Shown: piece by piece, positions 21,046 to 63,735 of the stretch
Layout: every line of letters begins with the position of its first letter
How positions within the stretch are numbered: the stretch's first letter is position 1
Assembly (NCBI GenBank): GCA_947174665.1
Contig: CAMWJV010000001.1
Location: forward strand, 34,242-98,241
Direction of reading: 5' to 3'
Length of the DNA stretch: 64,000 bases
From: an uncultured Lachnospiraceae bacterium
GTDB taxonomy: Bacteria; Bacillota; Clostridia; Lachnospirales; Lachnospiraceae
Made by a program: the position numbers and the translations under genes
The notes under the pieces: generated by a model
The model's database searches: none
Told to the model about the DNA's origin: nothing
Seen by the model: the letters and a program-made list of their open reading frames with translations, nothing else

Positions 21046-21075
21046 TAAATGTAAGAGCACAGGGGAGACGTGCAG

Positions 21076-21930
21076 ATGGCATCACTGGGCATACCGCGCA
21101 ACACCATAGAGATACTTCAGAAGTATAATTTTAATTTTCAGAAAAAGTTCGGGCAGAACTTTCTGATTGATACCTCTGTTCTGGACAGGATCATTGCGGC
21201 AGCAGAGATAACAGGGGAGGATTGCGTCCTGGAAATCGGCCCCGGGATCGGCACCATGACTCAGTATCTGGCGGAAAATGCCAGAGAGGTGGCAGCGGTG
21301 GAAATCGACAGAAATCTGATTCCCATACTTGAGGAGACGCTTGCAGACTACGACAACGTGACGGTCATCAACGACGACATTCTGAAGGTTGATATCAATA
21401 AAATCGTGGAGCAGAGGAATGGAGGCAGACCGGTGAAGGTGGTGGCAAATCTGCCTTATTACATAACCACGCCCATTATCATGGGGCTGTTTGAGAAGCA
21501 GATCCCCCTGCAGAGCATTACCATTATGGTACAGAAGGAAGTGGCGGAGCGTATGCAGTCAGGCCCCGGCACGAAGGATTACGGGGCGCTTTCTCTGGCG
21601 GTGCAGTATTATGCAAAGCCGGAAGTAGTGGCAAACGTACCCCCGAACTGCTTTATACCCAGGCCGAACGTGGGAAGCGCGGTTATCCGCCTTACCAGGC
21701 ATGCGGAGCCGCCTGTACATGTGGCGGACGAAAAGAAAATGTTTGCTCTCATCAGAGCGTCCTTTGGCCAGCGCCGCAAGACTCTGGTAAACGGGCTTAC
21801 GAACGCGCCGGAGCTGGGAATTTCTAAAGAGCGTGCGACAGCTGCTCTGGAGGAGATGAATCTGTCGCCCATGATTCGCGGCGAGGCGCTGACGCTGGAA
21901 CAGTTTGCGGAGTTAAGCAACCGAATCTGA
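21076..21930 (+). CDS. rsmA: 16S rRNA dimethyladenosine transferase
   Basis: KKFGQNFLIDTSVLDRI...LEIGPGIGTMTQYL...VVANLPYYITTPI. Confidence 0.95.
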   Translation: MASLGIPRNTIEILQKYNFNFQKKFGQNFLIDTSVLDRIIAAAEITGEDCVLEIGPGIGTMTQYLAENAREVAAVEIDRNLIPILEETLADYDNVTVINDDILKVDINKIVEQRNGGRPVKVVANLPYYITTPIIMGLFEKQIPLQSITIMVQKEVAERMQSGPGTKDYGALSLAVQYYAKPEVVANVPPNCFIPRPNVGSAVIRLTRHAEPPVHVADEKKMFALIRASFGQRRKTLVNGLTNAPELGISKERATAALEEMNLSPMIRGEALTLEQFAELSNRI

Positions 21931-60871: not shown

Positions 60872-62371
60872 ATGATTCGCCCTGTTGAAAAGTGTGAGAT
60901 TGATAAGTGTGTTGAAGTGATCAGAAAAAGTTTCTTAACAGTTGCTCAGGAGTATGGGTTTACGGAGGAAAATGCGCCTCGTTTTACAGCGTTTGCAACT
61001 ACATCCGAAAGACTTTATCGTCAGTATGATGAAGGCAGACCCATGTATGGGTATTTTGATGAGAATAGGCAGATTCTGGGGTACTATTCGCTGCATATGC
61101 AGGGAAATGAAGAATGTGAGTTAAATAATTTATGTGTTTTGCCGGAATATCGGCATAGACATATCGGAGAAATTTTGTTTTTTCATGCACTTACCACAGC
61201 AGATAACAGAGGCTGCAAAAAAGTGAACATCGGCATCGTGGAGGAAAATCAAAAGCTTCGTATATGGTATGAAAAACTGGGTGCAAAACATATCGGTACT
61301 AAAAAATTTGACTTTTTTCCTTTTACCTGCGGATATATGGAAAAAGACATTAAGGGAAAAAGCATGGAATGCAAACAGAGCATAGAATTATGGGATGCCT
61401 ATCATGAGGATGGAACATTGGCCGGATGTGACCTGATACGTGGTGAAAAAATCCCAAACGGATTGAGACATATGGTTGCAGAAGTTTTTGTGATGCACAA
61501 GGATGGCTCTATTCTTTTGATGCAGAGAGATTTTGATAAACCGAATTATCCGGGCTTTTGGGAAAGCGGTGCCGGTGGCTCTGTGCTGAAAGGAGAGAGT
61601 GCCCTGGATGGAGCCAGGAGAGAACTGCTGGAAGAGACAGGAATCATTGCGGATGATGACCTGGAAAATTTATATTATGTTGTTACAGATACAACAATAT
61701 ATCGGGGATATTTATGCGTGACCGATATTTCTAAAGAAAACGTACAGCTCCAAAAGGGCGAGACTATTGCATTCCGCTGGGCCGATAAGCAGGAATTCAG
61801 GGAAGTTTTTAACTCAGATCAATATGTAGATAAACTGAGGGAAAGATTAAGTGAATTTGCAGCACACGATTTCCAAAAAGAATATGATTGCTGCATTTCG
61901 AGAAACCGTTACTACTTCAGGTATCGCGCCGCAGCTATTATTATAGAAAATGGTGCTGTTCTGATGGCGCGAAACGATATTGATGATTATTATTACAGTA
62001 TAGGCGGAGGCGTTCATTTGGGTGAAACATCGGAGCAGGCTGTAATCCGTGAAGTTTTTGAAGAGACCGGTGTGCATTATGAAGTGGACCATCTTGCGTT
62101 TGTGAACGAATGTTTTTTTGAGGGAGAAGGGTCGCTTCAAGGGAAAGAATGTCATGGAATCGAATTTTATTATCTTATGAAGCCGAGAGGGACAAGAGAA
62201 TTGGGCAGTAACAATGCAGATGTGGGAATGATGGGCGGAAAAGAATACATGTGCTGGCTTCCTGTCGACAAATTGGGTGAATATAAATTATTTCCGACAT
62301 TTTTCAAAGAAAGGCTCATTAACCTTAATAAAGAAATTCAACATCTGATTTCCGATGATAGAAAGACATAA
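60872..62371 (+). CDS. GNAT-NUDIX-NUDIX fusion protein
   Basis: GNAT core LCVLPEYRHRHIGEILFFHAL; Nudix boxes GGSVLKGESALDGARRELLEETGI and GGVHLGETSEQAVIREVFEETGV. Confidence 0.88.
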   Translation: MIRPVEKCEIDKCVEVIRKSFLTVAQEYGFTEENAPRFTAFATTSERLYRQYDEGRPMYGYFDENRQILGYYSLHMQGNEECELNNLCVLPEYRHRHIGEILFFHALTTADNRGCKKVNIGIVEENQKLRIWYEKLGAKHIGTKKFDFFPFTCGYMEKDIKGKSMECKQSIELWDAYHEDGTLAGCDLIRGEKIPNGLRHMVAEVFVMHKDGSILLMQRDFDKPNYPGFWESGAGGSVLKGESALDGARRELLEETGIIADDDLENLYYVVTDTTIYRGYLCVTDISKENVQLQKGETIAFRWADKQEFREVFNSDQYVDKLRERLSEFAAHDFQKEYDCCISRNRYYFRYRAAAIIIENGAVLMARNDIDDYYYSIGGGVHLGETSEQAVIREVFEETGVHYEVDHLAFVNECFFEGEGSLQGKECHGIEFYYLMKPRGTRELGSNNADVGMMGGKEYMCWLPVDKLGEYKLFPTFFKERLINLNKEIQHLISDDRKT

Positions 62372-62487: not shown

Positions 62488-62575
62488 GGAGAAATACTCA
62501 AGAGGCCGAAGAGGCGCCCCTGCTAAGGGTGTAGGTCGGGCAACCGGCGCGAGGGTTCAAATCCCTCTTTCTCCG
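62488..62575 (+). tRNA. tRNA-Ser (anticodon GCT)
   Basis: GGAGAAA...TTTCTCC acceptor stem, CTGCTAA anticodon loop, long variable arm, GGTTCAAATCC T-loop. Confidence 0.95.
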
Positions 62576-62642: not shown

Positions 62643-63431
62643 TTATCCTCCATAATATTTTCTATAGCATCGAAAAAGGCAGAGCCATTGTATATACAGA
62701 GTTTCTCCGCTTGGAGGGATAGGTGGCAGGTTTGCCAGCCTCAGGGCAGCAGACACCTGCTTTTTTGTGAGCAGACCGGTGCCTCCGGTAAATCCGCAGC
62801 GCAGGGAATGCTCAATAAATTTTTCAAAGGAAGCCAGTTCTCTTTTTCCTAAATCCGGCTCCGCTTTTTTTGTCAGGTGAAGCAAAACGGAATCCACCGA
62901 TGGCATGGGATGAAAATCGCATTTGGCAAAGTGATATAGGATTTTCATATTCCAGTTGACCTTGAGCAGCAGGGATTTCTTTGTCTCTTTCGGTATCCCC
63001 AGAAAACGCTTTGCGGCGCCTTTTTCCATGATAAGCCACATGTCCGTGGGCGGGTTGGGGGCACCGGTTAGTTTGTCTAAAATCGGTGTGGTTATGAAAT
63101 AAGGAATATTTGCAAATACTTTATACTGTCCCCTGACAGGCAATGATTGTTTCAGAAAATCCCCATAAATCAGTTTGAGATTGGATTGAGGGGAAAGCTT
63201 TTCCTTTGCTTTTTCAAACAGTTTCCGGTCAATTTCGACAGAATACAGGAATCCGCATTTTTGACACAGAACCTGTGTCAGATGTCCTTTTCCCGTGCCG
63301 ATTTCCCAGACAGTATCTTCCCTTGTGATGCTGCTTATGTTTACGATCCTGTGGAGCAGCCGGGTGTCCGTTATAAAGTTTTGTGAATTTGACAAGTGTT
63401 TTGGGCCGTTGGGTCTTCGCTCTCTTCTCAT
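62643..63431 (-). CDS. erm: Erm-type 23S rRNA adenine N6-methyltransferase
   Basis: LSNSQNFITDTRLLHRIV...VWEIGTGKGHLTQVL...VFANIPYFITTPIL...FHPMPSVDSVLL. Confidence 0.85.
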   Translation of the reverse strand: MRRERRPNGPKHLSNSQNFITDTRLLHRIVNISSITREDTVWEIGTGKGHLTQVLCQKCGFLYSVEIDRKLFEKAKEKLSPQSNLKLIYGDFLKQSLPVRGQYKVFANIPYFITTPILDKLTGAPNPPTDMWLIMEKGAAKRFLGIPKETKKSLLLKVNWNMKILYHFAKCDFHPMPSVDSVLLHLTKKAEPDLGKRELASFEKFIEHSLRCGFTGGTGLLTKKQVSAALRLANLPPIPPSGETLYIQWLCLFRCYRKYYGG

Positions 63432-63442
63432 ATGATGATACC

Positions 63443-63511
63443 TCCTGCATTTTCATTACAAAAAAGGCAATAAAAATGCAGGATATACTCTCATAATGAG
63501 CGTCTCCTGCA
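63443..63511 (-). promoter_or_regulatory. Putative translational attenuator of erm (alternative hairpins plus leader ORF)
   Basis: TCCTGCATTTT (63443-63453) / AAAATGCAGGA (63473-63483), and TGCAGGA (63477-63483) / TCCTGCA (63505-63511) share the middle segment. Confidence 0.78.
63456..63494 (-). CDS. 12-aa erm leader peptide MRVYPAFLLPFL
   Basis: ATG...TAA with caggag SD 9 nt upstream; the ORF spans the middle attenuator segment. Confidence 0.7.
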   Translation of the reverse strand: MRVYPAFLLPFL

Positions 63512-63706
63512 GACTGCATGTACAACAGCATCAAATAAAGCAGGGCAAAAATGCCCTCGCATATCCGGCAAACCTGTGTTTCGAATGTATTCGCACGCAA
63601 AAAAAGCTCATTCTCATGAGAAGATTCAACTGCCTTTTTATTGCCTTATCAGCGAATACGAGCTATTAACACACGTAAGCCACCTTTCCGTTTATAATCT
63701 GAATTT

Positions 63707-63735
63707 AGTGTAGCATCATCTCATTTCATTTTCAA
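63707..63735 (-). promoter_or_regulatory. Putative erm promoter
   Basis: Minus strand TTGAAA-N17-TACACT. Confidence 0.6.

Follow-up and report, generated by a model that had tools for sequence, protein, structure and literature searches.

A conserved R-X-R leader as the likely sensor of a proposed multi-gate attenuator upstream of an Erm-like gene in an uncultured Lachnospiraceae bacterium

Introduction

Antiterminator/anti-antiterminator control with simultaneous release of the Shine-Dalgarno sequence (SD) has been worked out for vmlR of Bacillus subtilis (PMC9226507). There, the upstream ORF lies within the anti-antiterminator hairpin and encodes the tripeptide MIN, the response is to lincosamides, one terminator is present and the controlled gene is an ABC-F gene (PMC9226507). 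In the tlrB (yxjB) system of the same species, a terminator is combined with SD sequestration on an rRNA methyltransferase gene, and the codons of a 9-aa leader ending in RYR pair within the SD-sequestering hairpin (PMC6851288). R-X-R is a known macrolide/ketolide arrest motif; in tlrB, the ribosome stalls while X is in the P site and the final Arg occupies the A site, and stalled ribosomes give toeprints ~16 nt downstream (PMC6851288). As cited in PMC4335068, erm(K)/erm(D) of Bacillus licheniformis has the leader MTHSMRLRFPTLNQ and two adjacent intrinsic terminators upstream of an erm gene. The mefA/msrD leaders, MTASMRLR and MYLIFM, include an R-X-R leader and act by transcriptional attenuation, each with its own terminator, and no SD hairpin is described in the available parts of the sources (PMC10314930, PMC4335068). 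In erm(C)-type genes, a hairpin hides the SD, and its opposite arm overlaps a short ORF; these genes have no terminators, and the SD-proximal ORF is itself the stalling leader.

Here we analyse the region upstream of an Erm-like gene in a 64,000-nt stretch of DNA (the window) from an uncultured Lachnospiraceae bacterium. We propose that this region is an attenuator under ribosome control, in which a single sensor, a short leader that we call leader 1, governs three gates, and put the probability of this reading at roughly 0.6. The switch logic resembles that of vmlR, tlrB and erm(K). This locus differs from vmlR in its R-X-R leader, its additional terminator (T1) and its erm gene. It differs from tlrB, which has one terminator and no described counterpart (PMC6851288) of the module formed here by an element P and a second terminator, T2, in that segment B lies ~150 nt upstream of the gene and the SD is hidden by a hairpin of its own. 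We found no description of this combination, or of this erm clade, in the open-access literature. If the reading is true, a widespread and largely unnamed gut-bacterial erm clade would be under tight drug-inducible control through stacked transcriptional and translational gates.

Results and discussion

An Erm-like gene with many relatives

From its profile and structural matches, the product of the gene downstream of the attenuator is an Erm-like, putative 23S rRNA methyltransferase (Table 1). We use the name 'Erm-like' because the protein scored 201.9 bits against the broad Erm model NF000499, under the curated cut-off of 212. The RsmA-like gene of the same genome, a separate ORF at window positions 21070-21930, scored 171 bits against this model. 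The protein is nearer to Erm than to RsmA, with 114.7 bits for ErmC' (4.7e-32) and 85.7 bits for the best RsmA, and it is only distantly related to the erm(K)/erm(D) protein. Relatives comprised 79 loci from genome contigs and more obtained through genus, family and order searches, giving 83 distinct upstream regions; counts for the SD-proximal ORF and for element P use 39 non-redundant loci and T2 fold means use 36.

Table 1. Coordinates of the Erm-like gene and of the upstream elements in the window
Feature	Position	Strand	Remarks
Erm-like 23S rRNA methyltransferase gene (putative)	62643..63431	-	262 aa; NF000499 match; best solved relative ErmC'
erm Shine-Dalgarno AGGAGG	63441..63446	-	read from sequence
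Segment 3	63443..63459	-	GTAATGAAAATGCAGGA; 3' arm of SD-sequestering hairpin
Putative second leader MRVYPAFLLPFL, stop included	63456..63494	-	leader of the original prediction; not conserved
Segment 2 (plus one base)	63466..63483	-	TCCTGCATTTTTATTGC at 63483-63467; partner common to segment 1, segment 3 and P
Terminator T2	63472..63511	-	segments 1:2 and T tract; GCAGGAA...TTCCTGCTTTTTTATTGCC in relatives
Segment 1	63511-63505	-	TGCAGGA
Hairpin H	63542..63557	-	AGGGCATTTTTGCCCT; weak T tract; present in L068 with altered loop
Segment B	63575..63595	-	pairs with leader codons (A:B, proposed anti-antiterminator)
Terminator T1	63599..63664	-	hairpin of -14.7 kcal/mol using leader codons, then T tract
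Element P	63630..63645	-	GGCAATAAAAAGGCAG; proposed antiterminator strand, complementary to segment 2
Leader 1, MLIARIR, stop included	63649..63672	-	GTG start; R-I-R arrest motif; codons form segment A
Leader 1 SD	63680..63687	-	AAAGGTGG; kept in many relatives
Sigma-70-like promoter	63707..63735	-	TTGAAA-17-TACACT, TG before -10; consensus scan 9/12

The hairpins beside erm include a terminator

The original prediction described three segments beside erm as a translational attenuator. All three are present on the minus strand at the positions given for them, and pairings 1:2 and 2:3 are indeed mutually exclusive. The 2:3 fold hides the erm SD, as in erm(C)-type genes, and is longer than had been claimed, with 17 contiguous pairs that include AGGA of AGGAGG. 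Folding of 63420-63535 gave -41 kcal/mol, compared with -25.1 +/- 3.2 for shuffled sequences (z -4.9; 0/200 as good). In relatives, SD sequestration is kept with covariation: the anti-SD strand, which follows T2, pairs with the SD region of its own locus with a mean of -13.0 and with swapped partners at -11.6 (0/10000 permutations).

Hairpin 1:2 (-15.0 kcal/mol), with 7 bp and an inner stem, precedes TTTTTATTGC, and comparison with related erm loci, where its homologues read as intrinsic terminators of ~-11 to -19 kcal/mol, indicates that it is a conserved intrinsic terminator, T2. The element would thus act on transcription as well as on translation. The Erm-like gene, the SD-hiding hairpin and a probable control by ribosome stalling survive from the earlier logic. 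Intrinsic terminators between leader and gene, as expected of R-X-R attenuators, are represented by both T1 and T2 on the basis of sequence and conservation. A generic consensus terminator scan of the window, confined to loops of 3-8, listed neither of them, and an Rfam scan of the region returned no curated family except tRNA.

A conserved upstream leader ends in R-X-R

The stall peptide had not been recognised among the classical types, but ~180 nt upstream of the SD-proximal ORF MRVYPAFLLPFL lies leader 1, MLIARIR, with R-X-R at its end. A leader of this type was assigned in at least 75 of the 83 distinct upstream regions; with an SD and R/K-X-R/K, relatives encode MGIIIRIR, MTHSMRIRK, MLHSVRIRK, MLICVFRRIRIQGR, MGIIIRCARTRIQGQ and MFVIRIRK, among others. 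This conservation suggests that the seven-residue leader 1 is the true sensor and that the hairpins in the MRVYPAFLLPFL region form the distal part of a longer switch; a leader picked solely for its proximity to the SD can be the wrong one. The promoter match upstream is weak, with about as many matches of 9/12 expected by chance, and its position fits the conserved leader. The leaders MTHSMRIRK (L057) and MLYSMRIRK (L064) are similar to MTHSMRLR of erm(D)/(K), despite only a distant relationship between the Erm proteins. L064 sits in a MAG labelled Sphaerochaeta (Spirochaetota) and hence represents either transfer or mis-binning.

Leader 1 is followed by proposed exclusive pairings that reach the T2 region

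Segment A, formed by the leader codons, pairs with segment B with an own mean of -18.96 as opposed to -14.62 for swapped partners (0/10000 permutations, non-redundant set). The leader codons and the 3' arm of T1 were also considered as a covarying stem, which was rejected because no signal was found (permutation 4918/10000). Between B and T2 lies a perfect 6-bp hairpin, H, which is possibly an RNA polymerase pause hairpin.

Segment 2 had been assigned segments 1 and 3 as its only partners; a third, P, lies outside the region described at the time and had been missed. The relatives whose constrained folds first revealed P also served to test it. It is complementary to segment 2 in 39/39 relatives examined, and the P:T2 duplex of the window reaches -23.5 kcal/mol; at L008, an Erm(D)-like locus, the best match of P to a terminator 3' arm reached only -9.8, which is not comparable. 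The mean for P and segment 2 from the same locus is -23.76, compared with -21.03 after swapping (0/10000 permutations). At its non-homopolymer end block (GGCRRT with RYTGCC), 231/234 cells pair, with an additional T in each of five loci (L004, L035, L052, L098 and L100) counted as a bulge, and 0/5000 shuffles reach this count (mean 225.4, maximum 230). A MAFFT alignment without bulge adjustment gave 90.8% pairing for the end block and 34-66% for slid partners, with 4/500 shuffles as high. Compensatory types occur in the block, A-U/G-U/G-C at one position and C-G/U-A at another. The partner-swap and end-block tests ignore relatedness among loci, and on the tree P position 5 changes three times and its partner once, too few changes for an independent-pairs test at this position to be informative; the covariation is therefore suggestive rather than decisive. 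A:B and P:T2 cannot coexist without a pseudoknot, and thus, as in vmlR-type systems, a leader hairpin (anti-antiterminator) and an antiterminator exclude each other, with both pairings supported by comparison.

P also keeps a nearly constant distance from the arrest motif. Measured from the first base of codon X in R-X-R, it starts 13 nt downstream in 32/39 loci and 12-14 nt downstream in 37/39, whether 0, 1 or 4 residues follow R-X-R; of the two exceptions, L112 reflects a misplaced pattern, its GG being at +13. Given this spacing and a toeprint ~16 nt downstream, a ribosome stalled at R-X-R would leave P exposed apart from its first bases, and the same geometry suggests that a ribosome at the leader stop codon covers more of P than one at R-X-R. 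The near-fixed distance from arrest codon to long-range antiterminator offers a clean comparative case for studying how RNA may read out the position of a stalled ribosome.

These observations bear on the idea, which we consider unlikely, that leader 1 governs T1 only, T2 and the SD hairpin being unregulated dampers and the P:T2 match a by-product of A-rich and T-rich sequence. Such control would suit the sister group, which has one terminator and no T2, and the lack of thermodynamic switching in about half of the loci (see below). However, the match extends into the ends GGCRRT and GCAG, which are not homopolymeric and show compensatory types, the distance of P from the arrest codon is nearly fixed, and the best T2-matching place in the transcript is the leader stop in nearly all loci.

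A proposed mechanism and its folding in silico

The attenuator with leader 1 as its sensor joins elements supported by sequence comparison (the leader, T2, A:B, the P:T2 complementarity and the anti-SD pairing) through steps that we infer, namely stalling, the order of events, SD release and the identity of the drug. In the uninduced state, leader 1 would be completed and the ribosome released, allowing T1 to form; the A:B hairpin would enclose P, T2 would terminate read-through transcripts, and in whatever transcripts were left the erm SD would be hidden by the pairing of segments 2 and 3. By analogy with tlrB and from the motif itself, a macrolide-type drug would stall the ribosome on MLIARIR when Ile occupies the P site and the final Arg the A site. 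The stalled ribosome would cover A, and A:B and T1 could consequently not form. P, starting approximately at the leading edge of the ribosome, would stay free and pair with segment 2 ~150 nt downstream, and because P captures segment 2, T2 would be prevented and the anti-SD strand removed. P would thus be a position-coded strand, exposed by stalling and covered during normal termination, through which one stall at R-X-R opens three gates, including T2 and the erm SD hairpin ~150 nt away; we hold this part tentatively, as a little short of an even bet. If it is true, conservation of the Q-G-Q/R tail found in many leaders would concern the RNA and not the peptide.

When the nascent RNA of the window was folded to the end of T2, covering leader 1 with a ribosome lowered the probability of T2 from 1.00 to 0.08 and raised that of P:T2 to 0.79. 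Across the 36 loci the mean T2 probability fell from 0.89 to 0.45 upon covering leader 1, with about half of them switching; the T2 switch was absent from the folds of about half of the relatives. The fold run behind the T2 and SD values of the window left out the last three loci. In the full-length RNA of the window at equilibrium, 2:3 still wins with leader 1 covered, and the SD is unpaired with a probability of 0.17 either way. Segment 2 is common to P:T2 and the SD hairpin, yet the equilibrium folds keep the SD paired, and SD release would therefore have to rest on co-transcriptional kinetics or on ribosomes translating the second ORF. On these models, SD release is the weakest step of the proposal.

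The SD-proximal ORF is rarely kept

The scheme of the original prediction is a classical translational attenuator in which a ribosome stalled on a drug-sensing MRVYPAFLLPFL would sit on segment 2, leaving the erm SD open. The ORF is present, with an ATG and the SD AGGAG, and placing the P site of a ribosome at codons 1-4 lifts SD accessibility from 0.21 to ~0.8; occupation of segment 1 would block T2 as well. Against this, SD and ATG are in frame in only 4/39 non-redundant relatives, and 1-nt changes in the length of the U tract disrupt the frame, for example in L061 and L004. The peptide lacks R-X-R, and segment 2 is conserved even in relatives without any MRVYPAFLLPFL-type ORF; a conserved SD-proximal stalling leader, as in erm(C)-type genes, is thus not found here. 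In L085 the ATG is gone, and in L068 a 2-nt insertion moves the stop, which now overlaps the erm start. We consider the classical scheme improbable and reject MRVYPAFLLPFL as a general sensor. L068 retains codons 1-12, and MRVYPAFLLPFL could be a recent second sensor in this sub-lineage, but both L068 and L085 carry damaged erm genes and are for this reason weak witnesses either way. An upstream 23-codon ORF, MRGHFCPALFDAVVHAVCRRRSL (63491-63562, minus strand), whose stop overlaps the start of MRVYPAFLLPFL (TTATGA), was rejected as it is not kept in L068.

Relatives, evolution and surroundings

That the locus is decaying and its attenuator no longer works seems very remote: the two nearest relatives are damaged, L068 (also L101/L108) by an erm frameshift from a 1-nt deletion and L085 (also L106) by an internal erm deletion of ~50 codons and an insertion of ~140 nt that splits P, but none of the erm frame, leader 1, P, T1, T2 and 2:3 shows damage in the window.

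Judging from the upstream regions compared, dozens of related gut bacteria appear to carry the same switch as the proposed attenuator. The P/T2 module is confined to one strongly supported branch of the Erm tree, which includes that of the window. On this branch, L050 and L051 were not scored as P/T2; L050 was missed by the search pattern, although both elements can be recognised in it by eye, and L051 has a changed leader. The other branch has R-X-R leaders, a single terminator, no T2, and B beside the erm SD, a tlrB-like plan.

No relative was found on viral contigs and plasmid erm genes matched only at <60% identity, and we therefore see no sign of mobility. The window (positions 34242-98241 of contig C1) reaches the end of C1 (at 64000 of the window), and the last 55 bases of C1 (63946-64000) are found again on contig C172, ~110 nt 5' of a 16S rRNA gene; the erm gene thus probably adjoins an rRNA operon and is transcribed away from it. 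On its other side, a tRNA-Ser(gct) gene (62488-62575, plus strand) converges with erm, 67 nt from the erm stop, and a further gene (60872-62371, plus strand) encodes a 499-aa protein with a GNAT-like acetyltransferase region and two Nudix regions.
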